A stretch of 64,000 nucleotides of DNA from Desulfobacca acetoxidans DSM 11109 (GTDB taxonomy: Bacteria > Desulfobacterota > Desulfobaccia > Desulfobaccales > Desulfobaccaceae), in NCBI RefSeq assembly GCF_000195295.1, contig NC_015388.1, positions 3,192,001 to 3,256,000 on the forward strand. The letters are read 5' to 3'. Below the pieces are notes generated by a model. It saw only the letters and a program-made list of their open reading frames with translations, was not told where the DNA came from and did no database searches. How positions within the stretch are numbered: the stretch's first letter is position 1; each line of letters starts with the position of its first letter. Made by a program: the position numbers and the translations under genes. This document shows positions 1,098 through 64,000 of this stretch, piece by piece.

Positions 1098-2483
1098 TTA
1101 AGGAGATGAACGGCTGATTTTCTGTTTCTTGATTTTCTCCACCAGGGTGGTTCGATTGAGCCGAAGCAACTGCGCCGCCTGGTTTTTGACCCAACCGGTC
1201 TGTTTCAAAGCCTTGATAATCAGCTGCCGTTCGAAGTCTGACACCATTTTTTGGAGCGGCAGACCACCTACGGGTATTTCAGCGCTGAATCTCATCGCTT
1301 CTTGCGGGGTGAGCTGCAGGTGTTCCGGCAGGTCATGGGCATCTATTATTTCACCCTCAGACAGAATTACCATACGCTCAATAAGGTTTTCCAATTCTCG
1401 CACGTTGCCCGGCCAGGCATAGTCTTCGAGGAGGCGCATGGCAGCAGGCGATATCCGGATGGTCGGTTTCTTCCTTTTACGACTGAATTCCTGGATAAAG
1501 TAATTCACCAGGATGGGGATATCGGAGCGGCGCTGGCGCAGCGGTGGAATAATGATGGGAATAACGTTCAACCGGTAATACAAATCCTCTCTGAACCTGC
1601 CGGTCTGGACCAGTTCCTGAAGGTCTCGGTTCGTAGCGGCAATGACCCGGATATCCACTTTTAGGGTTTTCTGGCCGCCGATGCGTTCAAATTGATGGTC
1701 CTGCAAGACCCTCAGGATTTTAACCTGCAGGTTGGGACTCATATCACCGATCTCATCAAGGAAAATAGTTCCTCCATGGGCCTGCTCAAAACGTCCGATG
1801 CGGGTGCGAATTGCATGAGTGAAGGCACCCCGTTCGTGCCCGAACAATTCGCTCTCCAACAAATCTTCGGGGATGGCCCCGCAATTCACCGGAATGAGAG
1901 GGTTGGCCTGCCGTGAGCTGTTGTAATGTATAGCCCGAGCCACCAACTCCTTGCCGGTCCCCGATTCACCCAGGATCAACACCGTGCTGTCGGTATCCGC
2001 CACCTTGCGGATAACATCAAATACCTGGCACATAGGCTCGCTGACGCCGATAATGTTGTCAAAACCGAATTTTTCCCGGAGCTGCTTTTTGAGCAGGATA
2101 TTTTCCCACTGCAGGCGCTGGTGTTCCAGGGCCCGGGCCACGACCACTAAAAGTTCCTGAGATTCGACCGGCTTGCAGAGATAATCGTAAGCCCCTAAGC
2201 GCATGGCGTCTACCGCGTTTTGAATGGTGCCATAACCGGTAATGATAATACAACTTGTTCCTGGGAAATGCTCGACCAGGTATTTCAGCACCTCCATCCC
2301 ATCGCACTTAGGCATAGAGAGATCAGTAAGCACTACTTCATAAGTTCGCTGAGACAGGAGATTCAAGGCTGCCTCGCCGTCAGGACAGCTATCTACCTCA
2401 TAGCCCTCCTCGGTCAAGAGTTCGCTGAGGTTGTCCCGCACCGCACTGGAGTCATCAACCACTAGAATGCTTGCCTGGGACAT
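1098..2483 (-). CDS. Sigma-54-dependent response regulator (NtrC family)
   Basis: A 461-residue transcription activator with three domains. The receiver (1-120) has acidic residues D10/D11, phospho-acceptor D54 and K104. The AAA+ domain (about 142-375) has Walker A GESGTGKE at 172-179, Walker B FLDE at 241-244 and a conserved arginine-rich end (LPPLRQRR-type). A Fis-type helix-turn-helix lies at about 425-458. The sigma-54 contact loop reads GAFTHA (219-224) instead of the usual GAFTGA; this form is familiar from other deltaproteobacterial regulators of this type. No cognate histidine kinase is next to it, so the signal is unknown. ATG start with AAGGA upstream. Confidence 0.93.
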   Translation of the reverse strand: MSQASILVVDDSSAVRDNLSELLTEEGYEVDSCPDGEAALNLLSQRTYEVVLTDLSMPKCDGMEVLKYLVEHFPGTSCIIITGYGTIQNAVDAMRLGAYDYLCKPVESQELLVVVARALEHQRLQWENILLKKQLREKFGFDNIIGVSEPMCQVFDVIRKVADTDSTVLILGESGTGKELVARAIHYNSSRQANPLIPVNCGAIPEDLLESELFGHERGAFTHAIRTRIGRFEQAHGGTIFLDEIGDMSPNLQVKILRVLQDHQFERIGGQKTLKVDIRVIAATNRDLQELVQTGRFREDLYYRLNVIPIIIPPLRQRRSDIPILVNYFIQEFSRKRKKPTIRISPAAMRLLEDYAWPGNVRELENLIERMVILSEGEIIDAHDLPEHLQLTPQEAMRFSAEIPVGGLPLQKMVSDFERQLIIKALKQTGWVKNQAAQLLRLNRTTLVEKIKKQKISRSSP

Positions 2484-2776
2484 AGCCGGTCTTCCTTACC
2501 ACAGAAAAAAGGTAAATATGTAAACACCATAATCGGATACGATGCTGCTGTCAAGAAATTGTCACAGCCTTCGTTCCTGAAACCTAAAAATAGACTGATT
2601 GTCAATGCCTATCGGCCACCCGCAAACCATGAGAATCATCTGTCCGTGGCACAAACTTCCAGCCTGGGTCGAATCTTTTTCTCTTAGCCCGAAACTCGGA
2701 AATTGAAGCGCGAAACTTATTTTTCGGTAAAACCCTAAAGACCGGTCAAACAAACAGAGACGAGAGACTATTATTG

Positions 2777-3508
2777 TCAGCTTAAGGTATAAGAACGTGG
2801 GCTTTTGTGGGGACAGGTGCGCTTCCGACACCAAGTTCCCAAAGGGCAAAGGGAATCCGACTTTTTCCTGCAAAAATCCCGCCCAAGACGGACCAGGGCC
2901 GCCTCCAGGTCAGAAAATGCCCGCCCTTCTACCGGCTGGGACCGCCATTCAGCCTGTAACGTCTCCAGAGCTTGACGCGGCGATATTCCTGATGGTAATA
3001 TACCTAAATTCTCGGATGATAATTGGGTTAGGAAACTCAATGGTGGATCCGCCTTGGACCAGATTCCCCGAAGTTCCCGTAAAAAAATATTGACCGTAAC
3101 CGGTCCGATCCCGGCACCCAAGTTCTGTAGGCGAACTTCCAAATCATCGGCGCTCTGAGCCCGGTCATGGAGTCTCTCCAGGTCAGCTTCATACTGATCC
3201 ACCAAGGCGCCCATGACTGCGAGAAGCTTGGTGGCGGTTTTATAGTCACAGCGGGTATAGCCGCCCCGGTCAAGCAAGGTTACCAGCCGATCCCAACCCA
3301 GGGCCACGATAACTTCCGGCCGGACTGCATCCTGCTCTGCAAAGACCTTATAGGTGTGGGCTGCCAATTTCCCGGAAATACGGCCACCAAAAAGAATGGC
3401 TGCCAAAAACCAGCGCTGTCGCTGTTGTGGGTTGGCGGCCACATCTATCCCCAACTCCACTGAAAAAAGCCCAGGTAATCGGGCAAGTATCTCGGAAAAC
3501 ACCTTCAT
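2777..3508 (-). CDS. HhH-GPD DNA glycosylase-like protein
   Basis: A 243-residue soluble protein. The segment LQNLGAGIGPVTVNIFLREL (about 127-146) matches the helix-hairpin-helix of the endonuclease III/MutY superfamily, where G-G-x-K/V-T-A/V-N precedes a helix. Four cysteines near the C-terminus (FC, LC, WC, TC within 23 residues) recall the iron-sulfur loop of endonuclease III, but the spacing (C-x7-C-x5-C-x4-C) is not the canonical C-x6-C-x2-C-x5-C. The catalytic Lys/Asp are not clear to me. It may be a diverged base-excision enzyme or a non-catalytic relative. It is transcribed toward the regulator at 1098-2483, with a 293-base gap. Confidence 0.6.
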   Translation of the reverse strand: MKVFSEILARLPGLFSVELGIDVAANPQQRQRWFLAAILFGGRISGKLAAHTYKVFAEQDAVRPEVIVALGWDRLVTLLDRGGYTRCDYKTATKLLAVMGALVDQYEADLERLHDRAQSADDLEVRLQNLGAGIGPVTVNIFLRELRGIWSKADPPLSFLTQLSSENLGILPSGISPRQALETLQAEWRSQPVEGRAFSDLEAALVRLGRDFCRKKSDSLCPLGTWCRKRTCPHKSPRSYTLS

Positions 3509-4119
3509 AAAACATCAAACCGGAAAATATTAACAACCACCACTCCAAGACAATACCAAGAAAATAAGTTTTGAGTTTCGGGTTTTGAGTTAATAAGAAA
3601 ATAACCGCAGCAAGGACCGGAAGCCTGTGCCACCGGCAGATGATTTTCATGGTTCGCGGTTGACTGATAGGCAATGGCAATTAGTCGGAAGATAAGATTG
3701 CTCCGGATTCCAGTTTTCCAAGTTATTGAAATAACCATAGACAAAACATTTCCCAACGATTTATTTTATCACAAGATATATAAAAAAAGATTATACTTTT
3801 TTCAACTTCCTATGAGGTTAAGATCCTTCCCTATGGTCAGAATGTCAAAAAGTTGTTCGGGGCGAATACAAGATTCGCCCCTACAGGCGGCCCTGTCGGT
3901 GCTATAGGACCGTAGGGTGAGCACCGCACACCAATCCTTGATCTATTCTTTTAGATAGCTGAAGTATTACGGTTAATCCAAATCCAAGGCGCCGGACTAA
4001 CAAGGCTGAAGGGTTTATATGAATGAGGTCCAGGTAAGCGGACTCAAAATCCCCGGCATAGGTATAGGAGGCTATAATTTCAGAAGACGGTTAAGTTATC
4101 GCTTTTAAAGGAGAAAAAT
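3509..4119. other. Gene-free 611-base region with repeats
   Basis: No convincing gene. It holds an AACTC-type string (3570-3592), a right arm of the palindromic element (GGAAGCCTGTGCCACC, 3619-3634) and a CGAATACAAG element (3859-3938). The final 100 bases lead into the exported protein at 4120, with AAAGGAG as its ribosome site. No clear promoter hexamers were picked out. Confidence 0.6.
3859..3938 (+). repeat. CGAATACAAG dispersed element
   Basis: Begins GGGGCGAATACAAGATTCGCCCC, itself a short hairpin (GGGGCGAA/TTCGCCCC), followed by CTACAGGCGG, CTGTCGGTG, GTAGGGTG and GCACCGC, and ends near ATCCTTGATC. A second copy with the same block order is at 17478-17559, and a short one at 36023-36050. 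Confidence 0.7.
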
Positions 4120-50662: not shown

Positions 50663-50896
50663 TTGAGACAGTTGCAAAAAACCATGGAGCGGGAGGGGCA
50701 TGTCTGATAAGGGCCAGGTCACCCATGCCCCGACAGTCGGGAGATATTCACGGTAATTGCCATTACCCGCGGGTCACCCTTGAACAATGAAAATTATTGC
50801 TGGCCGGAGATTGGCTAACCGGGAATTGGTAGCTTGCAGAGAAAGTATCCACTGTCGAGTGGTCAGGTCAAAGAACGGCCTTTTGAGGTTAAATTT

Positions 50897-51346
50897 ATGG
50901 CGTCCAGTTTCTACGTCCTCATCATCATCATTACTATTCTATCTTGCTGGAGTTCATCGGTTCATGCCGACAAACCCAGGCCCCGTTTACTAGACGGCGA
51001 ACTTATTGAGGAAGGCCAACCATCCTCGGAACCGGAGGCGGCTAAATCACCCCAACCGACTCAGACAAGCCAGACGGTTATCCTGTTGAAAGAGTTCTGC
51101 GTCACCCTGCCATCCAACCCCTCGACCGGCTACGGTTGGAAAATTGCCTCTTATGATAAGGATTTTCTGCAATTGAAGAGCCATCGGTACCAGAAACCGG
51201 ACAAGGTTCTTCCAGGCGCTCCGGGGAGAGAGATGTTTGAGTTCCTACCCCTCAAAACCGGTTCTACCACTATCATCCTCCATTACCAGCGCCCCTTTGA
51301 AAAGCAGATCGCCCAGGAACTACACCACCGGATCATAATCCGCTAA
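50897..51346 (+). CDS. Chagasin-like (I42) protease inhibitor, exported
   Basis: A 149-residue protein with an N-terminal signal (hydrophobic 6-17, cleavage near VHA or a lipid-modified C17 in ILSC). After a Pro/Ser/Glu linker, the chagasin fold shows the three inhibitory loops: NPSTGYGW (74-81, family NPTTGY-x-W), GAPGREMFEF (loop 4, GxxGxxxF type) and YQRPFE (loop 6, normally RPW). Family members block papain-like cysteine proteases. Phe for Trp in the last loop is a mild change. The ATG at 50897 has GAGG upstream. No cysteine protease gene is nearby. Confidence 0.85.
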   Translation: MASSFYVLIIIITILSCWSSSVHADKPRPRLLDGELIEEGQPSSEPEAAKSPQPTQTSQTVILLKEFCVTLPSNPSTGYGWKIASYDKDFLQLKSHRYQKPDKVLPGAPGREMFEFLPLKTGSTTIILHYQRPFEKQIAQELHHRIIIR

Positions 51347-52420: not shown

Positions 52421-55400
52421 TTAATAGTGGTTCAGGGCAATTCTCTGGATCCGGCTATCGGCTGGGAATCTTGCCGCTCGTGAGGTATCCGGACTAGAGA
52501 CTTTGGCTAACCGGCCGGCCTCATCATAGCTGTATCGGGCCAGACAGGCCGGTTGGGCCTGATCACCGGGTTGCATTAGAAGAGCACGGGCAATCAGGGC
52601 CTGACCGTCTAGTCCAAAGGTATAATCAAATATGATCTTCTGGTTGCCCCACGAAATCGTTTTCACCAGCGGGTGTTCCGGCAGGGTTAGCTGTCCGTTA
52701 AATCTGCCGGCCCGGTCGAAGGGAATCTGCGTCTCATCCTGGAGTTCCAACCGGAAGGTGGCGTTATTCATCAGGGCCAAGAGTCGATATCTGCCCTCAG
52801 GTCGGGAGGGGTAATAGCCCACTCTGCCTAGGGCATCATTAAAGGTAAAGACGTCGCTGTCGCCGGTGTGCCGGTCGGTGATGCGCAGCCGCCGAGGCAG
52901 ATACAGGCTGGCTATTTCCACTTTGTCCGCACCTTCCGGCTTTAAATCATAGGCTGCGTAATTTAGCAGGTCCTTAGTATTACGCACATAATCCAGGTGG
53001 AAGCGATGCTCTCGAGAGAAGATCATATCGGTGAGAAAGCCGGCCTGATCAAACCAAAATTCGTTCCCTAATTTATCCGCCAGCCGGTAGGAAGTATCGG
53101 TCATGAGAAAGAGGCCGACTATCTGACTATCTGCCAGTTTATCAGGGACATAACCTGCTATGGCATAGCGTGTATCGGAAAAGGTGAGAATTTCCTGATC
53201 GCCGGAGACTAGATTTACCAATGCCATTTTTTCAGGGAGTTTGAGATTCTTAAAGTTGGTTTTGGTTTCACCGACGGGTTTGAGACGATAAGGTATGAGG
53301 AGATGCCAGCCATTGCCGAATTCTCCGGAGTCCTGCTTTTGCGGATTGAAGTATCGGACCAGTTCTAAACCCGGCTGATTGCCCTGGCGGAAGGCGAGAT
53401 CGGTCTGATAGCGGAAACCCCGGCAATCACGGCCGCTGGTAAGGGAATGCTGGGGAACCGAGGTATAGGATTTCTTATCCACGGCAAAAGAAACCGGTTG
53501 GGCCGGGAAGTCGGTCCCGGTAAGGGAGGACCGGGTGGAAATCGTAGTTTCGCCACCCCCTGAAGTCTGTGTCGCTACTGCCCGCTGAATAGCCTGGACT
53601 GCTTGGGGATCGTAGACATAATTTCCCTGGGATTTAAGATCGACACCGCCTTCCAGATAGAGCCCTGCAAAATGTTGGGAGCCTTTGACCAGGGCATCGA
53701 CAGTACCGGGCGAATCTTCCGTCATAACCAGATCTTTATTGGCCATGAGAAACCAGAAGAGCGGAACGCCCTGTTCCTTTAAGTACTTGGCCAGACTCAC
53801 CATCTTGGCATACTCAAACAGCTCCTGGTAGACCGGGTAGGCGGCAGCAATCTGTTGGTATTGCTCGGTGAAGAATTTGGCAAAAGCCTCATCGGCGGGT
53901 TCGGCTTTGGCGCTCTTATCCTGAAAGCGATATTCGGTCTTCAGGGTCATGCGGCCATCGGCGAAGAGGAGCAGACCGTCTCCTTGGGTGAATTTCATCT
54001 CTTCCGGGACGAACCAGAACCGGCGGCTGGCTCCGAGATAACGCAGGCCGTGACTGGCAGTGAGGGCGTCCACATCCTTGAAGTTGGGCAGGTTGGGTTT
54101 TTCGGTGCCGACAGCCCACTTTTTCATGGTGTAATCGGCTTCCCGCATCACCCGGCCCAGGTCGTTGTTGATGACGTTACCGATGTAGCGCACCAGTTGT
54201 TTTTCTTCCCCTGGGGCTATGGGATCGATAGAAATGCCAGGGTCCTGATTGGTAAAGTAGACCGACCAAAGGGCAGTGATAAATTTACGGAAGGCCTCAG
54301 GGGCAAGTTGGGCGTTGGCACCGTCCACGACGAGGGAGAAGTTGCCTTGAGACAGGTTAACCCTAGCATCGCCAGCACCCTGAACCTTCGCCGCTCCGCG
54401 CAGCATGACGCCGCCGACGTTATGGGAAAAATTCTGCGGGGGTAGATTAGGATGGAAATCTACTTTGGGAATGGGACCGCTGAGGGAGGAGGGAGAAATG
54501 GGGAGGTCAGAGATGGCCTTGTCAGACATCGAAAATTTGCGGTTTAAGGAACAACCAATATTATGTGGTGGATCAGGGACTCCAATATTTCCCTGTTGAG
54601 AATATCCGGGCATTTGCCATCCTTCCAAAGGGACTTTCCAGGATAGGACAGGCTCTTGTGGTTTGGAACGTATTACCAGTTCCTTCAGAGCAGTGATGTC
54701 ACCGTCTTTGAGGGTTGAGATTAAGGCCTTGATTTCAATACCACCGTCGATTTCCATAACCACGGATTGCTTCCCAAAATTCACCTTCTCTTCCCGTTTC
54801 AGGAGGTCATAGTCTTCCGGGGTTATAACCGCGTCTGGGGAATATTGCGAAAGCCAGAAGCTTACATCAGGTTTTTGGGCAAGGGAGCGAACCCCCTCTG
54901 CCAAACCTACAAGATCAAAAAGGACCTTCAATTTCCCTACCTCAGGGTGTGAGGCAGCGATATCCTGGAAGTTTTGGGTTAGCAAATCGGCGAAACGTTC
55001 ACCGACGGCGTCATGAAACCCGGTGATATCTTCAACTTTTTTCCCATTGACAGAAGCGCTCATCACTTGAGGGACAACACCGATCAGGATATCTTTAATG
55101 ACAAATACCCCCTCTCTTTTGGCCAGAGAGGAATTCAGGGGGTGGAACCAGAAGCGGGTGGAGACATTCTCGTCAACTCCTCGCTGACGGGCATCGTCCA
55201 CAGACATATCGAAATATGACTTTGCTCCCCAGATATCGCTGGAAATAAGCCCCAGCCCCAATTTTTTTAAGACTAGGTCGGCTTCCAGGAGTTCCTTGCC
55301 AAACTTTGTATTGGCCAACTTACCTTCAAACCTTACTTTTTGCTTGGCGGTTTTCAGCGTGTCGGGGGTTTTATCAATGCTTACGGAGGGCCACACCTGA

Positions 55401-55699
55401 TCCAGACAGCGGGCTCGCAAGGCTACCACAAAATCATCGAGATTGGCTTTATGGCCTCCCTTATTAACCTGACCGACCAGGATCAAATCATTGCTCTTCT
55501 CATCATAGATCATACCCACGAGGTTGGTAATACCCCCAAGCTCGATGACATCGGTATTCGCTCTACCGGTTTTTTTGACGAGACTCTCTGCCTCTTTTAA
55601 GGAATAGGCTACAAAAGGGCCTGCATGGGCATGATGAAGGGAAAAGATGAGCAGCAAAAGGAAAACTTTGCAACCGAACAAAAACCTCATCGTTCTCAT
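52421..55699 (-). CDS. Large exported protein with internal duplication and RHS-like C-terminus
   Basis: A 1,092-residue protein. The ATG at 55699 is preferred to an in-frame GTG at 55729 (AAAGGGA upstream); a signal peptide ends near HAHA (residue 26). Two homologous regions, about 87-325 and 470-690, share LDDFVVALR.../FRKFITALW, SVSID/GISID, EADLVLKKLGLG/EADYTMKKWAVG, RFWFHP/RRFWFVP and IAASHPEVGKL/IAAAYPVYQEL. They faintly recall planctomycete DUF1598 proteins. Residues about 770-1075 look like the start of an RHS/YD-repeat module (FGNGWHLLIPYRL; YSYDEAGRLAKV). Last gene of the operon; probably secreted or at the cell surface. Confidence 0.8.
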   Translation of the reverse strand: MRTMRFLFGCKVFLLLLIFSLHHAHAGPFVAYSLKEAESLVKKTGRANTDVIELGGITNLVGMIYDEKSNDLILVGQVNKGGHKANLDDFVVALRARCLDQVWPSVSIDKTPDTLKTAKQKVRFEGKLANTKFGKELLEADLVLKKLGLGLISSDIWGAKSYFDMSVDDARQRGVDENVSTRFWFHPLNSSLAKREGVFVIKDILIGVVPQVMSASVNGKKVEDITGFHDAVGERFADLLTQNFQDIAASHPEVGKLKVLFDLVGLAEGVRSLAQKPDVSFWLSQYSPDAVITPEDYDLLKREEKVNFGKQSVVMEIDGGIEIKALISTLKDGDITALKELVIRSKPQEPVLSWKVPLEGWQMPGYSQQGNIGVPDPPHNIGCSLNRKFSMSDKAISDLPISPSSLSGPIPKVDFHPNLPPQNFSHNVGGVMLRGAAKVQGAGDARVNLSQGNFSLVVDGANAQLAPEAFRKFITALWSVYFTNQDPGISIDPIAPGEEKQLVRYIGNVINNDLGRVMREADYTMKKWAVGTEKPNLPNFKDVDALTASHGLRYLGASRRFWFVPEEMKFTQGDGLLLFADGRMTLKTEYRFQDKSAKAEPADEAFAKFFTEQYQQIAAAYPVYQELFEYAKMVSLAKYLKEQGVPLFWFLMANKDLVMTEDSPGTVDALVKGSQHFAGLYLEGGVDLKSQGNYVYDPQAVQAIQRAVATQTSGGGETTISTRSSLTGTDFPAQPVSFAVDKKSYTSVPQHSLTSGRDCRGFRYQTDLAFRQGNQPGLELVRYFNPQKQDSGEFGNGWHLLIPYRLKPVGETKTNFKNLKLPEKMALVNLVSGDQEILTFSDTRYAIAGYVPDKLADSQIVGLFLMTDTSYRLADKLGNEFWFDQAGFLTDMIFSREHRFHLDYVRNTKDLLNYAAYDLKPEGADKVEIASLYLPRRLRITDRHTGDSDVFTFNDALGRVGYYPSRPEGRYRLLALMNNATFRLELQDETQIPFDRAGRFNGQLTLPEHPLVKTISWGNQKIIFDYTFGLDGQALIARALLMQPGDQAQPACLARYSYDEAGRLAKVSSPDTSRAARFPADSRIQRIALNHY

Positions 55700-55818
55700 A
55701 GAGCAAGTCCCTTTAAGGAATCCAGTCACTCTAACTAGTTGGTATGATTGTTACTTCCCCATAAGAGCACTGACATCTCTTTATTAGGCTTCTCTTATTT
55801 GGCGCCTGTCAGGATCTT

Positions 55819-57273
55819 TTATTCATAACTTAAGGCGAAGGGCACTTCGAAGGGCCAATCGCCTTCATCCAGGTGCGCGGCACTTAGGTTGGCGGTGACA
55901 CCACCATAAGTATTCCCCTGAATGTCGATTCTCTGACCACCACCGATATCCACTTTAGCGCCACCAAGAGCTGTGCTCATATCTTTCCAAGTGTTGAAAT
56001 TCTGATTTGTGGTCTTGAGCTGATGGACCTGGGTGCCTAGCCCCCCAACGCCCGCGCCTATTCCCTTGCCAGTTTCAACACCGATGGGTCCGAGATTGAC
56101 CCCTGCCTTATTGCTCAATTCAAACTTGAAATCTTGGGGGATAGTTGCTGCAGCGAATTCCCCCCAGCCACCCGGGACATTCGTTTTTAATCCATTATTG
56201 ATGTATGGTGCCAGCTTATCTTTGGCCCCGGGCGTAATATTACTATAGGTTTTTAATTCTGTTATAGCTTTATTGTACATGTTAATATCAGTTTTCTCGG
56301 CTACTTTGAGAGCAGAATGAAAGTTGTTGGCTGTTATCTGATTAGGATTCTGAGTAAATTCTTTAAAGCGTTTGGATAATTCGGTACCGAATTCCCCTTT
56401 GGCCATACGTATGAGTTTCTTTTCTTCCCATCCCCCCAAGTAAGCCGTGATGCGGCCGATATTGCCATCCACGATGCCTAAGCCGCAACCAGCTTTTTCC
56501 TTCGCCGTCTGGAAAATCTTCTTCGAATCCTCCAACTTCCCTAAAGCCACCTGGGCACACCCCTGTCCTACAAAGGCTAGGCAATAGTCCGGAGAATTCT
56601 GCAGTGCAAGGCCAAACCAACGGAGAGCCCCTTCGGCCCCCGCCTTTTTGCGAATATTGATGGTCCCGCGGTTAGTGTAGCCCTCGGCAAAATTCTTCCA
56701 TATTGCAACTGCGGTTTCTAAATCATTGATGGCTTGCAACCAATTTTCATTCATTGCTTGGGTTACGCCCCTCGCATTCAGGGTCAGGACATGCTTGTTC
56801 TCAGGTGACAGGAATAAGGCTTTATCAAACGCCGCCATGGCCAGCTCCCGCTGGTTATTGCGAGCCAAGGCATCTCCTTGCAGGTATTGGGTAATTGCTT
56901 TGGTGGGATACTTTTGAGCAAGCATGTCAGAAAATAATCGCCAGGTCTCCCGGTCTTGGGGAGAGGACGCGCTCAAGAATAGGCATAGGGACTCATTGTT
57001 TTTATTTATAGCCAGGCCTGCATGCCCTTTAAGGAGACGTAGTACGGGAGAGGGGGTTTGCGGGCTGACGTCCTTGAGAAGTTCCCAAACTTGGGGCCAA
57101 TTTTCTGCCAGCAGGGCCTGTTCCAGGGCCGGGGTGACTTCCTGGTCAGTTTGGGCCAGGGTAGATGAAGCGAGACTGAACAGGGCTGCCAACAGGAGGC
57201 AGGCGAGCAAGCCATGGCAGAGAAATCTGTCGAACTCTTTTAACCACCCAATTCTAAATCCCATGCAGTTCAT
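55819..57273 (-). CDS. Exported TPR-repeat protein
   Basis: A 484-residue protein; AAGGAGGAGACA precedes the ATG. The signal peptide ends near STLAQ (residue 41). Residues about 120-275 hold TPR-like repeats (AFDKALFLSPENKHVLTLNARGV, AINDLETAVAIWKNFAEGYTNRG, ALRWFGLALQNSPDYCLAFVGQG). The C-terminal 150 residues are Gly-rich with beta character (GPIGVETGKGIGAGVGGLG, GGGQRIDIQGNTYGGVTANLS), perhaps surface-exposed or a structural module. Probably periplasmic or outer-membrane associated, acting as a scaffold for the large exported protein encoded next. Confidence 0.75.
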   Translation of the reverse strand: MNCMGFRIGWLKEFDRFLCHGLLACLLLAALFSLASSTLAQTDQEVTPALEQALLAENWPQVWELLKDVSPQTPSPVLRLLKGHAGLAINKNNESLCLFLSASSPQDRETWRLFSDMLAQKYPTKAITQYLQGDALARNNQRELAMAAFDKALFLSPENKHVLTLNARGVTQAMNENWLQAINDLETAVAIWKNFAEGYTNRGTINIRKKAGAEGALRWFGLALQNSPDYCLAFVGQGCAQVALGKLEDSKKIFQTAKEKAGCGLGIVDGNIGRITAYLGGWEEKKLIRMAKGEFGTELSKRFKEFTQNPNQITANNFHSALKVAEKTDINMYNKAITELKTYSNITPGAKDKLAPYINNGLKTNVPGGWGEFAAATIPQDFKFELSNKAGVNLGPIGVETGKGIGAGVGGLGTQVHQLKTTNQNFNTWKDMSTALGGAKVDIGGGQRIDIQGNTYGGVTANLSAAHLDEGDWPFEVPFALSYE

Positions 57274-57333
57274 TGTCTCCTCCTTTGATCGAGCACTATC
57301 AGCGTATTAAAACACTATCCGCAGAGATGCCAA

Positions 57334-58170
57334 TCAGTTCCCCGGCGCCGGGGTGCCGCCGATGCGTTCATCCCGGCTGATGCTGCCGATGACGATTTCA
57401 TCTCTCATAGAGGGCCACCAGCCCACTTCATAGCCTTGTTGGAAGGCCAGGTCGCGAGCCTGGCGAAAGAGGGCAAAAGAATTTTTGTGAACCAGGAAGA
57501 TGGCCCGGTCATTGCTTTTATTTAAGGATTTCAAAGTCTTCAGGAAGGCGCCTTCAGGCTTCGGCAGGTCTTCGAGGGTCACGCCGGCGATTTTCGGTTT
57601 TCTCGTTTTGACCGTGACCGGGACGATATTACCGCCCGTCACAGTAGCAAACATATCCTTGGAATTATAAAAGTCCTTGTTGACGGGATAGAGTTTCTTA
57701 TTAATGACCTGAAAGTAAAAATCATCTCGGGAAGACTCGGTGACAACGTGGAAGCTCCCTTTGGTTTGGCCCCTGTTGCCCAAGCGCTGCATTTCCTGTT
57801 CTAGGGCGGTGACTTTTCTGGTTTTGGCGGCCACTTCCTTTTGCAGCCGGTCACGATTCTCGCGGAGAAGCCTGGTCTGCTGGTGGAGGTCTTGGGCCCG
57901 GTCTTCCCATTGTTTGGCCTGAATTTCCGTCTGCTGGAATCTGTCCTGCTGTTTTCCGAGATCCTCAGTCAATTGGTGGTTCGCATCCTGCTCAGCCTTA
58001 AGGTCCTGATTGAGGAAGTCAATTTCGTTGAGAAGGATCGGCAACCTGGGATCAATAAATCTGGGCTCGCCGGGAATAATCATGGGGGTGGTGGCCAGGA
58101 GGATGATGCCGATGATGGTAAAAATCGGGTCCTGAAACATTTCCATGAAAGAAAACTGCTGCCTTCGCAT
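57334..58170 (-). CDS. Single-span coiled-coil protein, ExbD/MotB-like partner 2
   Basis: A 278-residue protein. One N-terminal span (about 15-33) is preceded at once by D14 in FQDPIFTIIG, a place where MotB/ExbD/TolR carry their ion-binding Asp. A long coiled coil runs from about 45 to 125 (LRENRDRLQKEVAAKTRKVTALEQE). The C-terminal domain ends with a segment (NDRAIFLVHKNSFALFRQARDLAFQQGYEVGWWP) like that of the next protein upstream, in parts: xxIFLV...F..FxxAxxxAxxxGxxxxxxP. Predicted inner-membrane protein with its bulk in the periplasm. Its ribosome site lies in the 9 bases after the upstream gene. Confidence 0.75.
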   Translation of the reverse strand: MRRQQFSFMEMFQDPIFTIIGIILLATTPMIIPGEPRFIDPRLPILLNEIDFLNQDLKAEQDANHQLTEDLGKQQDRFQQTEIQAKQWEDRAQDLHQQTRLLRENRDRLQKEVAAKTRKVTALEQEMQRLGNRGQTKGSFHVVTESSRDDFYFQVINKKLYPVNKDFYNSKDMFATVTGGNIVPVTVKTRKPKIAGVTLEDLPKPEGAFLKTLKSLNKSNDRAIFLVHKNSFALFRQARDLAFQQGYEVGWWPSMRDEIVIGSISRDERIGGTPAPGN

Positions 58171-58179
58171 GATTGTCCC

Positions 58180-58860
58180 TTAGTAGGCTAATTCCAGTTG
58201 CCACTCCGCGTTTACAGGCTCATAGGCCAGGGTTAGACCGGTTTTTTTAGCCTTCTCGAAAGCGGCCGCAAAGGTTTTAAAGCCGTCGGGGCGGACTAGC
58301 AGGACGATGCCGTCATGACCGCCGATTGTATCTTTTAAGGCCTCTTTTTTATTCAGATCGGACAGGCGGAGCGCTTTCTTCCCCGGATAGATAATGGCGG
58401 CGCTGGACTGGCAGTCTAAAAACAACGGGTTGGTGAGAGTGGTAGCGCCTTTAAAATCGCGCCAGCGAAAGACATTTAGATCTTTTCTGTCTTGGGCCAG
58501 TTGTACTTTTCTCTGTTCCAGGTCGGCCAATTCCTTCCTAAGCCGGGCAATATCCTCAGCCAGGGTATGATCTGGAAGTTCTTTCTGCAGGCTGGCGATC
58601 TTCTTTTCTTCAGCGCTGATCTTACCCCTGAGGTAGTCAACCTTGGCTTGCAGGGCCTTCCCCTGGTTTTGAAGCTGCTCTTTCGTGACGGCCAGACCCT
58701 GGCGCTGCTGAATGAGAGACTCAACGTCGGGCAGCTCTTCATTGCGTTCTTCAATGGCAGCCCCCAGGTTTAAGGTGGCCAGGGAAAAGGCCAGAAAGGC
58801 CACCACACCCACCAGGCAGACCAGGAGCAGCAGTACCTCAACATTATCATTGTCTTTCAC
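58180..58860 (-). CDS. Single-span coiled-coil protein, ExbD/MotB-like partner 1
   Basis: A 226-residue protein with the same plan as the following gene product: N-terminal span (about 8-30, preceded by D5 and E8 in DNDNVEVLLLL), a coiled coil (about 36-130, EEKKIASLQKEL, ARLRKELADLEQRKVQL), then a compact C-terminal domain with LDCQSSAAIIYPG and HDGIVLLVRPDGFKTFAAAF, followed by KKTGLTLAYEPVNAEW. No known family name comes to mind. It overlaps the MotA/ExbB-like gene by 14 bases, which supports a membrane complex with that channel. Confidence 0.78.
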   Translation of the reverse strand: MKDNDNVEVLLLLVCLVGVVAFLAFSLATLNLGAAIEERNEELPDVESLIQQRQGLAVTKEQLQNQGKALQAKVDYLRGKISAEEKKIASLQKELPDHTLAEDIARLRKELADLEQRKVQLAQDRKDLNVFRWRDFKGATTLTNPLFLDCQSSAAIIYPGKKALRLSDLNKKEALKDTIGGHDGIVLLVRPDGFKTFAAAFEKAKKTGLTLAYEPVNAEWQLELAY

Positions 58861-59839
58861 GCCGGTTCCCTTCCAAGGGTTGGACGACGATCTCGTAACG
58901 GGGCGGATTGTTCAGGCTTTTTTGCAATCCCTCCATGTGGTGAATGAGTTCGGTAAATCCCGGTTCCAGTTTTTGCACCGTCTGTTTAAAGGCCTGATCA
59001 AGTTGGTGCAGGAATTTCTGCAACAGATCGCGCAGGAAGGCCTCTAATAGTCTGGGTTGGGCCGTAACATCAGGATTGGCGTGGGAGAGGCGGGAGATCA
59101 GGACGCGGGCTTTTTCATCCACCCGATCGACAAACAGCTCTTCTTTCCGGCGCAAGAGGGAAGACAACATCACCACGATAATGGTGTATCCCAAAGCCAG
59201 AAGAGTGGTATCAAAGGAGACGCTCAGGGAGGCAGCCAGGTCTTTTAAAAGGGTGCGGAGGGCTTCGATATTACCGGCAGTTTCAGAAAGCTCGGGGAAT
59301 TTGGCCATGCCCAGGGAGAGCCCTACCACCGTCCCCAGAAAACCTAAGACCGGAATGAGTTGTTTCAAGGCGTTCAGGATGAGATGGCCGCCTTCAATCT
59401 GCTCCAGATCCCGGCGTGATAACTCCTGATTGAGACGCACCACCTCCTCCCCGTAGGTATAGCCCCACAACAATTCGCCCAAGCGGCGGAAACTGATGGG
59501 ATTGTCGTAGGTAATCGCCAAACCCTGAATGGCCTCGAGCAGTTCTTGCGCCGATTCCGGCGTGATCTGTTCCTGAAGTTGATCGATGGAGACCTTGGTA
59601 TCCAAAATTCGGCTTTCTTTCTTGAGGTCGACAGACTTGCTGACGACAAAAAGCAAGGCGGTGAAAAATAACCAGGTGGTGAGCGCCTGGACATACCAGC
59701 AGCGGAAAAAGAAGCTGCGCAGGAAGGAATCGGAACTGAAAAAAGAGATGGTCAGATAGAACAGGCCGGTTAAGAAGAGAGCAGCAAGAAAAACGAAGGC
59801 ATTTGACTCGATGACGATCTTTTTCAGACTCGATTTCAC
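58847..59839 (-). CDS. MotA/TolQ/ExbB-type proton-channel family protein
   Basis: A 330-residue membrane protein starting at GTG (GAGGTGGCAAC upstream). Spans lie at about 13-33, 49-66, 158-178 and 205-227. The last two carry the family signatures: PVLGFLGTVVGLSLGM and SFDTTLLALGYTIIVVML. A cytoplasmic loop of about 90 residues separates spans 2 and 3, and a helical cytoplasmic tail of about 100 residues follows (LLEAFLRDLLQKFLHQLDQAF). This family converts proton or sodium flow into motion with a MotB/ExbD/TolR partner. The two coiled-coil proteins encoded next are the likely partners. It is not flagellar: no motB-type OmpA domain is present. Confidence 0.88.
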   Translation of the reverse strand: MKSSLKKIVIESNAFVFLAALFLTGLFYLTISFFSSDSFLRSFFFRCWYVQALTTWLFFTALLFVVSKSVDLKKESRILDTKVSIDQLQEQITPESAQELLEAIQGLAITYDNPISFRRLGELLWGYTYGEEVVRLNQELSRRDLEQIEGGHLILNALKQLIPVLGFLGTVVGLSLGMAKFPELSETAGNIEALRTLLKDLAASLSVSFDTTLLALGYTIIVVMLSSLLRRKEELFVDRVDEKARVLISRLSHANPDVTAQPRLLEAFLRDLLQKFLHQLDQAFKQTVQKLEPGFTELIHHMEGLQKSLNNPPRYEIVVQPLEGNRRERQ

Positions 59840-59875
59840 GTTGCCACCTCAAGCTCAGGATTTTGGCACCACCGG

Positions 59876-60604
59876 CTAATAGTCCGGGACCAGCAGAATA
59901 ACTGAGATGTTATCCCTGCCACCATTCTTGTTGGCCAGGGTAACCAACTTATCAGCCGCCTCCTGGAGATAGTCCGATCTGCGGCGCACGACTTTGTTGA
60001 TTTTCTTTTCAGGAACCATATCGGTAAGACCGTCAGAACACAGGAGGACTATATCTCCGGGAATCAGATCAATGTTTTTAATGTCGGGACCTTGATACTC
60101 CGGACAACCTAAACATTGGGTAATAATGTGGCGCAGGCTGTGAGATTGGGCCTCTCGGGGAGACAGCAGACCGGATTTCACCATCTGACTGACATAGGAA
60201 TGGTCTTCGGTTAATGGCATGATACCCCGGCTGTTAATAAGATAGGCGCGGCTATCTCCGATGTGAGCAATGTGGAGTTTTGGCGGAGTCAGGAGACCTA
60301 CTACCGCGGTGGTGGCCATGCCGGTCAGCGATTGGTCTGCTTCGGCCCGGGAGAGCACTGCAGCATGGGCGTCAGCAAAGGCCTGCTGTAAAAGAACCGA
60401 AAAATCAGGTTCAGGGGATTCTCTGAGTCCATTCTGAATGGTTTGTTGAATACTCTCTGCGGCCAACTGGCTGGCTACCTCGCCCCCTTGGGCGCCGCCA
60501 ACGCCGTCAGCAACCAGGTAAAGTCCCAAGAGCTGGTCAATCAGGAGGAAATCTTCGTTATGGGGCCGAATCTTTCCCGGATGCGAGCTGTAACCTAGTT
60601 TCAT
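59876..60604 (-). CDS. PP2C-type Ser/Thr protein phosphatase
   Basis: A 242-residue soluble phosphatase with the complete PP2C metal and catalytic set: RPHNED, VADGVGGAQGGEVAS, GDSRAYLI, LTEDHSYV, CSDGLTDMV and GGRDNISVILL. It should remove phosphate from Ser/Thr of partner proteins, most simply of proteins bound by the two FHA modules encoded just upstream. Its ATG overlaps the upstream FHA stop as ATGA, so translation is coupled. No kinase gene is visible; it may lie beyond the right edge. Confidence 0.95.
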   Translation of the reverse strand: MKLGYSSHPGKIRPHNEDFLLIDQLLGLYLVADGVGGAQGGEVASQLAAESIQQTIQNGLRESPEPDFSVLLQQAFADAHAAVLSRAEADQSLTGMATTAVVGLLTPPKLHIAHIGDSRAYLINSRGIMPLTEDHSYVSQMVKSGLLSPREAQSHSLRHIITQCLGCPEYQGPDIKNIDLIPGDIVLLCSDGLTDMVPEKKINKVVRRRSDYLQEAADKLVTLANKNGGRDNISVILLVPDY

Positions 60605-61305
60605 AAGCCGTTTTTCAAGATATCTTTGTAAAAAAAGAGGAGTCTAGCGCTTCCCAGATTGATGCTGTCGCCGTTTTTGAGTAAAACCCCCTGGGAATCA
60701 ATCTGCCGGCCACCAACCCGAACCACGCTCTCGCCGATAGGTTGGATGATAAAACCGAGGTCATCGGTTAGAGGCTGAAAAACAATCCGGGCGTGCTTAG
60801 GGTTTATGGTGGCTGCATCAAAGAGATGCACATGGGCCTGTCGGTGCCGCCCCAGAAGACTCCGTTGTTCCTTGAGAGTAAAATATCGGGGCAGTTCCCG
60901 CCCTCCCTTCGCAGGACTACCAATATCCAACAGGACCAGGTGGGCAATAATATGGGGAGGAAGTTCGCGGTCACTAGTTTCGTTTATCTCAGGTAAGCCT
61001 CCCCGGTCAGCCTCGGGCGACAAGGCGCTAGGCGGGCTTTCTGTAGAGAGGGATGCACCGGAGGCAGGTGGAAGGGGTGTTGCCGTTTCCGGCAGACTTT
61101 CAATAAATTCTTCAAGCCGTTTCTGACCGTCAACCTGGCCGGAAGACTCGATGCCCACCTGCGGGTGCGGCGAGGATGGGACCTCTGCGGGCTGGATTGA
61201 AATATCATCTAGCCCACTCAGGGGCGAAGCTGGCGCTTTTTGTTTCCGCTGCCTCAATTCTGCCAGCTTCTTGAGGAGATCAGGGCCCGTATGGTCTTTG
61301 CCCAT
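60601..61305 (-). CDS. FHA-domain protein
   Basis: A 234-residue soluble protein. The first 130 residues are polar and Pro/Ser-rich, probably disordered. An FHA domain occupies about 150-230: LLGRHRQAHVHLFD (Gly-Arg conserved), INPKHARIVF (the usual Ser-Arg-x-His reads Asn-Pro-Lys-His) and a late strand NGDSINLGSARLLFF. The Ser-to-Asn change and no clear NG before the last loop could weaken phosphothreonine binding. AAGGAG precedes the ATG. Sits 11 bases after the VWA-FHA gene and overlaps the phosphatase by 4. Confidence 0.82.
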   Translation of the reverse strand: MGKDHTGPDLLKKLAELRQRKQKAPASPLSGLDDISIQPAEVPSSPHPQVGIESSGQVDGQKRLEEFIESLPETATPLPPASGASLSTESPPSALSPEADRGGLPEINETSDRELPPHIIAHLVLLDIGSPAKGGRELPRYFTLKEQRSLLGRHRQAHVHLFDAATINPKHARIVFQPLTDDLGFIIQPIGESVVRVGGRQIDSQGVLLKNGDSINLGSARLLFFYKDILKNGL

Positions 61306-61316
61306 GTGATCGCTCC

Positions 61317-62948
61317 TTAATAACGAGTTCCGGTTAAGGGTCGGCGATCATAAAAGGCCAGGCTGACGCCGCCCAGGGTAATGGCATCCTGATCTTCCAG
61401 AGGGGCTGCTTCGGATATGGGTTTGTCGTTTAACTTTGTGCCACTAAAGCTACCCAAATCCTCTAGATGGTACATCTGCGTTTCGGCATCAAGGAAGATG
61501 CGGGCATGACCGGCGCGCTGCGGGTTGGGCCGGGAGACCGTATTATCAGAGAAAAGCAGGTAGATTCGGGCGTTATCATAAAGAGCCGGGTTTTCGTCGT
61601 CGTAACGCGTCAGGATGATTTCCTGATAGTGGAGATTCTTTGAGGAATCGAGCAGCGCAAAGAATATCGGCACCGGCGGGATGTTCAGACGCAGGCCCAC
61701 TTCACCGGGGGAGAAGAGGACCCGGGTGGAGGTACTGGATCCACTCCCTGGGGAGGTTGCCATCACCGAGTGCGCCTTGCCTTTAAGCAAAACGCGTACC
61801 GGTTCGGGAAGTTTAGAGGTTACTTTCCAGCGCCGCACCAGGAACCAGATAAGAAGCCCCAGACCCAACAGGGCAACCCCGGCCACTAAGCCCTGCCATA
61901 AGGGCTCTTGCCACCATTCCGGTGGCGGCTGAGGTAGCTGGACCGGTTCAGGTAAGGGAGTCGGAGCGGTTGCCCGAGGCGAAGGTTCTAGTGCCGGGAG
62001 CGGCGGGACCTGGGGGATAATAATAGGGGCCGGAGGCGGCTGGGGCTGCGGTTCGGCGGCCACATACAGGAACCGACGCTGGGTGCTCAATTCCTGCCCG
62101 GCAACGGATAATTTGAGCTGGGAAGTATATACTCCCACCGGGTTTTCGTAGGTGAAGCGTAAGATATATTGATTTTTCAGGTAGTCTAAAACCGTCTGAT
62201 ACAGGTTAGTTAAATCTGCGGCCTGAGGAGTAGAGAGGAAAGCACCCTGACTGGCAGAGGCAACTTTTTGCAAGTAATCAACCTGGGCCTTAGAACCAAA
62301 CCCCATAGCGTATATAGGAACCTGGGCACCTTTGATACGATCCAAGACGGCTTCTTCGGACACGGGGCTGCCTTCGTCCTTGCCGTCGGTGAGCAATATC
62401 ACCGCTGCCCTGGTAGTTGGTGCCTGAACGGCTCTTTCCATGGCCTCCAGGGTAGCCTGATAGAGCCAGGTCCATTGCTCTTTGGCCTCGAGATGCTGTA
62501 GTTGCTCCCGCACCTCGTGCTTCTTGGCGGCGAAATCTGACAGGTGATAGACCCCCTGGCCAAACGTGATTAAGGCGACGTGATCATCTTTTTCCAGTTC
62601 ATCGAGAAAGATGGCTGCGGCCTTCCTGGCTTCGGCCATGGGTTCGCCCTTCATGCTGCCGCTGACATCGATGGCCAGAACCACGCTTAAGGGGCTCTTG
62701 GCACTGGAGATAGGTTCCAGAGAGAAGTCTTTGATGGGCTGACCCTCGACACTGAGAGAGAAATTTTCCGGTGTCAGATTTTTAATGGGCCGGCCGGTTT
62801 TATCCAACACCGACAGGATCATCTCCACTGCGTGGTTCGGTTTGGATTGAATATCCAAAACGTGGAGTGCACCTAATTCCGCAGGCGTGGCCATTTGGGC
62901 CCAACAGAGAAATACTAGCAAGAATGCCAAAACCCGCCATATTACCAC
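61317..62948 (-). CDS. VWA-domain membrane protein with cytoplasmic FHA domain
   Basis: A 543-residue protein. The GTG at 62948 is chosen (GGAGG seven bases upstream) over one six codons earlier. After a signal peptide (to about ATPA), a von Willebrand A domain carries an intact MIDAS: DVSGS at 94-98 and LTDGKDEG near 187. A Pro-rich linker leads to one span (about 372-392, GLVAGVALLGLGLLIWFLV), then a C-terminal FHA-like domain (about 470-535: AGHARIFLD, DLGSFSGTKLND). The FHA site is imperfect (NGT reads SGT). Predicted topology: VWA outside, FHA in the cytoplasm, a way to pass a periplasmic binding signal inward. Confidence 0.85.
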   Translation of the reverse strand: MVIWRVLAFLLVFLCWAQMATPAELGALHVLDIQSKPNHAVEMILSVLDKTGRPIKNLTPENFSLSVEGQPIKDFSLEPISSAKSPLSVVLAIDVSGSMKGEPMAEARKAAAIFLDELEKDDHVALITFGQGVYHLSDFAAKKHEVREQLQHLEAKEQWTWLYQATLEAMERAVQAPTTRAAVILLTDGKDEGSPVSEEAVLDRIKGAQVPIYAMGFGSKAQVDYLQKVASASQGAFLSTPQAADLTNLYQTVLDYLKNQYILRFTYENPVGVYTSQLKLSVAGQELSTQRRFLYVAAEPQPQPPPAPIIIPQVPPLPALEPSPRATAPTPLPEPVQLPQPPPEWWQEPLWQGLVAGVALLGLGLLIWFLVRRWKVTSKLPEPVRVLLKGKAHSVMATSPGSGSSTSTRVLFSPGEVGLRLNIPPVPIFFALLDSSKNLHYQEIILTRYDDENPALYDNARIYLLFSDNTVSRPNPQRAGHARIFLDAETQMYHLEDLGSFSGTKLNDKPISEAAPLEDQDAITLGGVSLAFYDRRPLTGTRY

Positions 62949-63131
62949 AGTAAATCCTCCCTGCACAGCATGATCATTAACTCGGCAGTAAGCAGCTGCA
63001 ACCCTTAATACTGCCAGGTCCGGGACAACTCAGCCATAAATCTTCGGTGAGGTTACCGAAGGCTCTGCCTCCGACAGTATAACTCAATGTTTATCCTTGG
63101 AATCTTGCCCGACTGCCAATTAAGAAATTGA

Positions 63132-64000
63132 TCAGTCGCCGGAAAATTTCGGTGGCAAGGGAGTTCTAGGTTCCTCCACTACGGGCGTCCGCTCATAGTC
63201 GTCTTCCCGCGACCGGGTTCTTTTCTTTGTTTTTTTCGGGGGTTTCTTCTTAATCACCGTTAAGTCGTCGAAAATCATCGGCACTTCGAGATTCATGCCG
63301 TTGACCAGACGGATTATTCTGGTACGATCCTCGGGGTTTTTTACCTTACCGGCAACCTTGATTCTATCTTTCTGAAGCAAAACCTCGATATTAGGGAAAC
63401 CGCTGTCCCGAAGTTTGGTTTTTATGGCTTGGGACAAGACCAGTTTTTTGTTTTCTTGATTAACCGGAGGTGTCGCTGGCGCCGTGATTGGCTGGTTTGT
63501 CTCGGGAACCACCGGAGCGGGAGTAGAAACCCGGAGAACTGGGCGGGAAGCCGTGGTCGGAGCATTAGGGCTGAGAAGCTGAGGCTCTGTCAGAGTATCC
63601 TTTTTTGTTTCGGTTGAGGTCAGGCCCGGCGGAGGCGTTGGCTTGGCTGCCAGGGTTGGCGGTGGATCTGAAGGTTTAGGCGGTTTCGTTTCGGGCGCAG
63701 GAGGTGGAGGAAGGTCAGCCGGGCTATCTGAGGTGGGCGCCACGGGTTTGTTAGAGACCGCCAACTGCTTCTGATTCGGGGATTTTGGATGAGGTCCACC
63801 CGGACCATTCACAGACTTTCCCAACCCACCCCGTGAGGAAGTTCCTGGCTCAGAGGATGGTGGGGAAATATTTTTCCCGGATGGTGCAAGTGACTCGGCT
63901 GGAGACGGAAGTTTTGCTATAAGCTGCGGAGGTACCGCCCCATCGTGGTCTGGTCCCCTGGTCAAGGCGTTATAGATGATGGGAGAGGCTATAATAGCTA
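63132..64000 (-). CDS. Pro-rich protein with BON-like C-terminal domain (partial)
   Basis: The frame is open to the right edge: a hydrophobic run (AIIASPIIYNAL) precedes a TTG at 63965, so the gene starts outside the window and the TTG is not the true start. At least 289 residues. After a likely membrane segment comes a long Pro/Ser/Thr/Lys-rich linker (about 150 residues). The C-terminus at about residues 185-245 has a BON-like alpha-beta pattern (LRDSGFPNIEVLLQKDRIKVAGKVKNPEDR in outline) and a basic tail (KKKPPKKTKKRTRSRED). It could be the periplasmic end of a membrane kinase, but that is not visible here. Confidence 0.6.
   Translation of the reverse strand, partial: AIIASPIIYNALTRGPDHDGAVPPQLIAKLPSPAESLAPSGKNISPPSSEPGTSSRGGLGKSVNGPGGPHPKSPNQKQLAVSNKPVAPTSDSPADLPPPPAPETKPPKPSDPPPTLAAKPTPPPGLTSTETKKDTLTEPQLLSPNAPTTASRPVLRVSTPAPVVPETNQPITAPATPPVNQENKKLVLSQAIKTKLRDSGFPNIEVLLQKDRIKVAGKVKNPEDRTRIIRLVNGMNLEVPMIFDDLTVIKKKPPKKTKKRTRSREDDYERTPVVEEPRTPLPPKFSGD

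Follow-up and report, generated by a model that had tools for sequence, protein, structure and literature searches.

A candidate ion-driven envelope motor with two different coiled-coil subunits and a kinase–phosphatase–FHA gene set in Desulfobacca acetoxidans

A 64,000-nucleotide stretch of the Desulfobacca acetoxidans genome (positions 3192001-3256000 of the single 3,282,536-base contig; below, the window) ends in a run of tightly packed genes, among them those for a MotA/TolQ/ExbB-like channel, two related coiled-coil proteins, a set of Ser/Thr phosphorylation proteins and two exported proteins. Because unrelated bacteria carry the set in the same gene order, the locus is very probably real and a hitherto undescribed version of cell-envelope motors already known. 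The type strain is a non-motile, acetate-degrading sulfate reducer (PMC3156406). Nine open frames, all on the minus strand, fill 52421-64000; two neighbouring pairs overlap, by 4 and 14 bases, and the other frames are separated by 9, 11, 36, 60, 89 and 165 bases. These frames and spacings are all as given in the original prediction made from the window, which had counted nine genes; however, the ninth is only the C-terminal part of a 611-amino-acid (aa) kinase, and a tenth gene, TPRA, lies upstream. The sequence beyond the window was read as L006 (kinase 132-1967, TPRA 1967-3973). In order of transcription, the ten genes are:

TPRA, overlapping the kinase gene upstream and reaching 66973, outside the window, minus strand: TPR protein of 668 aa, read beyond the window.
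63132..64000, minus strand: C-terminal part of the Ser/Thr kinase, whose gene runs to the position corresponding to 64967, outside the window (Stk1-type kinase profile, 300 bits; 611 aa whole).
61317..62966, minus strand: VWA-FHA protein (Pfam VWA 2.9e-18, FHA 7.4e-7).
60601..61305, minus strand: soluble FHA protein with a low-complexity N-terminus (Pfam FHA 1.1e-6).
59876..60604, minus strand: PP2C-type Ser/Thr phosphatase (Stp1_PP2C_phos 235 bits, cut-off 230).
58847..59839, minus strand: MotA/TolQ/ExbB-like channel subunit (Pfam MotA_ExbB 33.7 bits, cut-off 22.9).
58180..58860, minus strand: CC1, coiled-coil axle-like subunit (alignment; AlphaFold2 model of the end domain).
57334..58170, minus strand: CC2, coiled-coil axle-like subunit (alignment; hhalign to CC1).
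55819..57273, minus strand: TPRB, exported TPR protein (TPR_2 5e-8; N-terminal hydrophobic segment).
52421..55729, minus strand: BIG, large exported protein (DUF1598 over the cut-off in two stretches).

The recurrence was found by scanning ~85,000 species genomes for conserved peptides of the channel; these patterns are strict and diverged copies can escape them, so that all counts are lower bounds. At least three further loci were obtained, two from metagenome-assembled genomes of Deltaproteobacteria (L010, L011) and one from a metagenome-assembled genome labelled Nitrospira japonica (L012), which we take as a different phylum because its phylum group shares no listed genome with that of the window genome. 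L010 and L012 carry the genes from the kinase through BIG in the order of the window, and L011 carries TPRA through TPRB in that order, followed by the N-terminus of BIG, which is cut by the contig end. The proteins of these loci are 27-62% identical to those of the window, and genes around FHA-PP2C-channel-CC1-CC2 again overlap, by 4-31 bases. A fifth genome (G030) contributes a fragment, TPR-VWA-FHA-FHA-PP2C, at whose end the contig stops. Thus, with the same order in three other genomes, the gene arrangement is not a product of chance, and the association of neighbours proposed in the original prediction holds beyond the window. The ten-gene set is nevertheless rare and patchy: the channel is present in 3 of 59 relatives, is missing in two of three congeners and is found in 1 of 395 genomes of a phylum sample, although this rarity may be overstated since the strict patterns can miss diverged copies. 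Two other channel-like genes (L022, L023) were rejected as further copies, as neither has the ten-gene set; in the L023 neighbourhood (L023:8525-13629), the MotA-like channel stands with a TolR-like protein, a transmembrane (TM) protein rich in Gly and a protein that, by eye, resembles a formylglycine-generating-enzyme domain. An additional lipoprotein-like gene stands between the kinase and VWA-FHA genes in the L012 genome only (L012:6391-7002).

The two axle-like subunits share one architecture. CC1 has one TM helix, a periplasmic coiled coil of ~111 residues and a putatively TolR/ExbD-like C-terminal domain; CC2 has one TM helix and a coiled coil of ~114 residues, and the C-terminal domains of the two proteins are homologous. 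The relationship of CC1 and CC2, suspected from the outset, is supported by hhalign (93%, E 3.8e-7). The hydrophobic period of the coiled coils is 3.3-3.5 residues, with 3.5 for the CC2 heptad; matches of both proteins to coiled coils in Pfam, NCBIfam, PADLOC and PDB were discarded as generic. The Asp that opens the TM helix of CC2 is invariant (FQDP/FEDP, four of four genomes), and the TM helix of CC1 has no conserved acid in the alignment of the same genomes. Between conserved anchors chosen by us, the CC1/CC2 stalks measure 111/114, 116/114, 115/115 and 186/197 residues in the four genomes, that is, both are longer by 70-80 residues in L012. This joint change of length, seen in four genomes and between chosen anchors, is the main evidence on which we propose that CC1 pairs with CC2.

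The channel has four hydrophobic segments, a long cytoplasmic loop and a C-terminal helix. Its membership of the family rests on Pfam and on motif alignment: the threonines of both pore helices align with those of the genome's own TolQ and ExbB (G-T-V and D-T-T-L columns versus GTV and VATA). A full-length profile comparison with ExbB/TolQ aligned 12 columns only. The channel has a signature, (A/S)FDTT, which most of the distant relatives also show. The loop between the pore helices is longer than in the genome's own TolQ and ExbB. Elsewhere in the same genome, at ~0.42 and 2.48 Mb, two paralogous loci (L048:971-6072 and L049:1-2177) combine a short MotA-family channel with a 112-aa single-TM protein and a large protein, CobN-like by our own reading.

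Upstream of the channel lies a signalling set, which the kinase beyond position 64000, anticipated in the original prediction, makes complete as kinase, PP2C and FHA. The kinase consists of a kinase domain, a TM segment, a Pro-rich region and a BON-like end, and its catalytic K, HRD, DFG and APE are present. The phosphatase has the metal-binding Asp motifs of PP2C, with PHNED as the N-terminal motif in the window. The VWA-FHA protein contains a signal-like segment, a VWA domain, one TM segment and an FHA domain, with two hydrophobic segments in all; its metal-ion-dependent adhesion site is intact (DxSxS/T/D), and its VWA would be periplasmic and its FHA cytoplasmic. The residues of the kinase, the PP2C and the VWA metal site are intact in all four genomes.

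Since half of the genes are signalling genes, one may ask whether the locus is a sensor, in which channel and stalk register a mechanical or envelope state or the proton-motive force (PMF), the kinase/PP2C/VWA-FHA proteins relay it to other targets, and TPRB and BIG are periplasmic sensor parts. A VWA-FHA protein connecting periplasm and cytoplasm would suit that role, a non-motile host has no movement to power, and kinase/PP2C/VWA-FHA sets exist on their own. However, the pore threonines of the channel and the Asp of CC2 are kept, which would be superfluous in a pure sensor, and short-stalk motor relatives occur without signalling genes. We therefore regard a sensor as rather unlikely.

These relatives belong to a broader pattern in which each part of the locus is also found apart. 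Sets of kinase-PP2C-VWA(-FHA)-FHA without a motor occur in L069, L070 and L071 (in L070 the kinase is off the contig shown). Conversely, L058 and L059 (and, truncated, L056) carry a channel with CC1-like and CC2-like proteins of 162-176 aa, which have no long coil, followed by lipoprotein-like and TPR genes and with no signalling genes alongside. They share the gene order channel-CC1-CC2-TPR with the window locus, and their acidic residue varies in position, with Asp in both partners in L058 and in the CC1-like protein only in L059. As an observation in its own right, the compact five-gene cluster at L058:4831-9721 and L059:6392-10928 (MotA-like channel, two different short TolR-like proteins, lipoprotein-like gene, TPR protein) seems to represent a wider, undescribed motor family in the phylum. 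TPRB and DUF1598 proteins are found with no adjoining motor in G012, where the surrounding island also encodes CHAT/M48, DUF4384 and OmpA proteins and a sigma factor, and in G330, beside RHS-like genes. In G171, TPRB, again with DUF1598, directly follows a channel and a CC1-like gene, a link between TPRB and the motor that does not involve the signalling genes. Two islands were noted in passing: one of CHAT/M48 peptidase, DUF4384 proteins, OmpA-DUF4384, sigma factor and TPRB/DUF1598 genes (L031:292-17126), and a similar one with a MotA-like channel and a CC1-like gene inside (L057:2-7390). Because each part also occurs apart, the ten-gene locus is best understood as three modules fused around a TolQ-type motor. 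That the three merely lie side by side, with no functional linkage, would fit their separate occurrence, but it is hard to reconcile with the identical order and short overlaps in two phyla at the identities given above, or with stalks that were extended together; we consider it highly improbable.

TPRB and BIG both begin with signal-like segments. BIG has two DUF1598-like regions, and a genome search matched it in two places; its C-terminal third is RHS-like, resembling the start of RHS proteins, with RHS_repeat and DUF6531 matches that are weak and below the cut-off. No toxin domain was found in it and this third is conserved nearly to the end, which makes BIG unlike a polymorphic toxin. Sequence comparison gave no solved relative and no plasmid match for BIG, and its structure prediction (1102 aa, 4 sequences) had a pLDDT of 32 and was not used. 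The original prediction had the motor move or secrete the large exported proteins, and in a full form of this idea the stalk would drive BIG across the outer membrane for secretion or surface display, with TPRB as periplasmic partner. The signal-like segments, the position of both genes next to the motor in four genomes and the channel-CC1-TPRB arrangement in G171 are in its favour. Yet no outer-membrane channel gene was recognised among the ten genes, which leaves export across the outer membrane unsupported; moreover, TPRB/BIG pairs also exist with no motor genes nearby, and the BIG model gives no help. The idea was thus not sustained, and we judge it improbable.

Among described systems, the vWA force transducers are the nearest. 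This class, described in 2025 from the Planctomycetes–Verrucomicrobia–Chlamydiae (PVC) group, comprises TolQ-like motors that come with a pair of heterologous TolR-like genes, vWA transducers and a TPR gene, and the paper makes no mention of a kinase or phosphatase (PMC12204202). In this class as in the window locus, the gene for a TolQ/MotA-like channel precedes those for two different TolR-like subunits, and TPR and VWA genes lie close by. They differ in that both axle subunits of the window have long, matched coiled coils, that kinase, PP2C and FHA genes are present, and that the VWA protein is built as signal segment, VWA, TM and FHA instead of as a TonB-like TM helix with vWA. An N-terminal TonB/TolA-like TM helix or Asp transpore helix followed by a C-terminal VWA was not found in it, the SHLS motif itself not having been searched for. 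The motor core, a channel with two different TolR-like subunits and a TPR protein, is therefore not categorically new but part of a wider family (PMC12204202); to this extent the original claim that no named system has this set needs qualification, whereas for the full combination, also after the right-hand genes were read, the literature offered no matching described system.

The AglRQS gliding motor of Myxococcus likewise has one channel protein and two different MotB/TolR-like partners, and whether AglQ and AglS pair with each other is given there as unknown (PMC9389320). A TM Asp is described for both Agl partners, and the host of the window locus is non-motile. We know of no kinase/FHA/PP2C set described with AglRQS. 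GldLM, of type IX secretion and gliding, resembles the locus in its single-TM partner, its long rigid periplasmic part and its PMF-driven motor. GldM, however, forms its dimer from two copies of one protein, made up of globular domains (PMC9389320), whereas the window axle would be a heterologous coiled-coil pair, and type IX secretion genes were not seen in the window locus. The PpkA/PppA/Fha threonine phosphorylation pathway of the type VI secretion system (T6SS) shares a kinase, a PP2C and an FHA protein controlling an inner-membrane machine; the VipB profile of the T6SS sheath was absent from the D. acetoxidans genome and present in the E. coli control.

The locus is also, as had been proposed, not flagellar, Tol-Pal/Ton, Zorya or T6SS. 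CC1 and CC2 have no OmpA-type domain (Pfam) and the strain is non-motile; no TolA/TonB, TolB/Pal or TonB-dependent receptor is among the ten genes, and the genome has a separate TolQ-TolR-TolA-like locus and three ExbB-ExbD-TonB-like loci. As to Zorya, an envelope-sensing motor reacting to phage or contact, with kinase signalling as the effector arm, would agree with the patchy presence, with weak ZorA matches to the channel (E 1.9e-5; one further ZorA match was coil-driven) and with TPRB/BIG relatives in the island with CHAT protease, DUF4384 and OmpA proteins. But ZorB, ZorC and ZorD gave no match, there is no nuclease or obvious toxic effector, and PADLOC returned only generic kinase, PP2C and coiled-coil matches with no system. 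A conflict or defence role thus appears quite improbable.

Instead, we give about an even chance to a motor of 5:2 type, driven by the proton- or sodium-motive force, in which a CC1-CC2 heterodimer serves both as axle and as stalk and which is phospho-gated and acts on TPRB and BIG. The MotA-like subunit, judged by its family, would form a pentameric channel; CC1 and CC2 would heterodimerise with their TM helices in the pore, CC2 carrying the sole proton-binding Asp. Their coiled coils of equal length would form a rigid periplasmic stalk of ~16-29 nm (at 0.15 nm/residue) with TolR/ExbD-like tips, which proton or sodium flow may turn or stroke. This stalk would act on TPRB and BIG, either at the outer membrane or at the cell wall. 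The membrane kinase, PP2C and the two FHA proteins, one of them tied to a periplasmic VWA sensor, might switch the motor on and off, much as kinase/phosphatase/Fha control acts as a gate in T6SS. The complex, its rotation, the direction of control and the cargo are what we infer from the genes and their conservation.

Several observations weigh against this motor. The 5:2 assembly is taken from the family, structure prediction having covered single chains, and an axle pair with a single Asp would differ from homodimers, for which two are assumed. The CC1 end domain (AlphaFold2, pLDDT 85) has the periplasmic domain of ExbD, 8pek, among its best structural matches (Z 6.5 over 80 residues at 2.7 A), which supports the motor but does not decide the matter, since the RNase H-like folds of YqgF and uS11 tie with it. 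No sequence relationship emerged when profiles of the CC1 and CC2 end domains were compared with the ExbD/TolR proteins of the genome. The separate FHA protein has the serine of its SxxH motif replaced in four of four genomes, with GR kept in three of four; Arg and Ser are the two residues whose mutation served to probe whether Agrobacterium Fha binds phosphothreonine (PMC3953482). Because the usual serine is missing throughout, phosphothreonine binding by this protein is uncertain, and of the FHA/PP2C control postulated originally, the complete kinase/PP2C/FHA set stands but the FHA-phosphothreonine step is in doubt. Finally, the occurrence of TPRB/BIG with no adjoining motor (G012, G330) and of the signalling set with no motor makes the three modules separable.

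The Pfam families above cut-off in the locus are MotA_ExbB, PP2C, FHA (twice), VWA, TPR and DUF1598, all but DUF1598 as originally assigned. The window had no Rfam match, promoter sites were no more numerous than in shuffles, and terminators were only slightly in excess. Outside the locus, the window encodes at 50834-51346 on the plus strand a small exported protein which, judged by eye, looks like a cysteine peptidase inhibitor of the chagasin type (I42).

The axles of known motors in this family are usually taken to be symmetric homodimers. The D. acetoxidans locus may, as we tentatively propose at less than even confidence, represent a new kind of motor, gated by Ser/Thr phosphorylation, in which the axle is an obligate heterodimer and the one Asp, carried by only one of its subunits, drives a long coiled-coil shaft across the periplasm. 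Stalks that lengthen together and an Asp on one partner make the questions of heterodimer and one-Asp stroke directly testable. Moreover, a kinase/phosphatase/FHA switch, known for T6SS, is here joined to an ion-driven envelope motor, and a candidate envelope machine is now on record for a non-motile sulfate reducer whose genome is complete.

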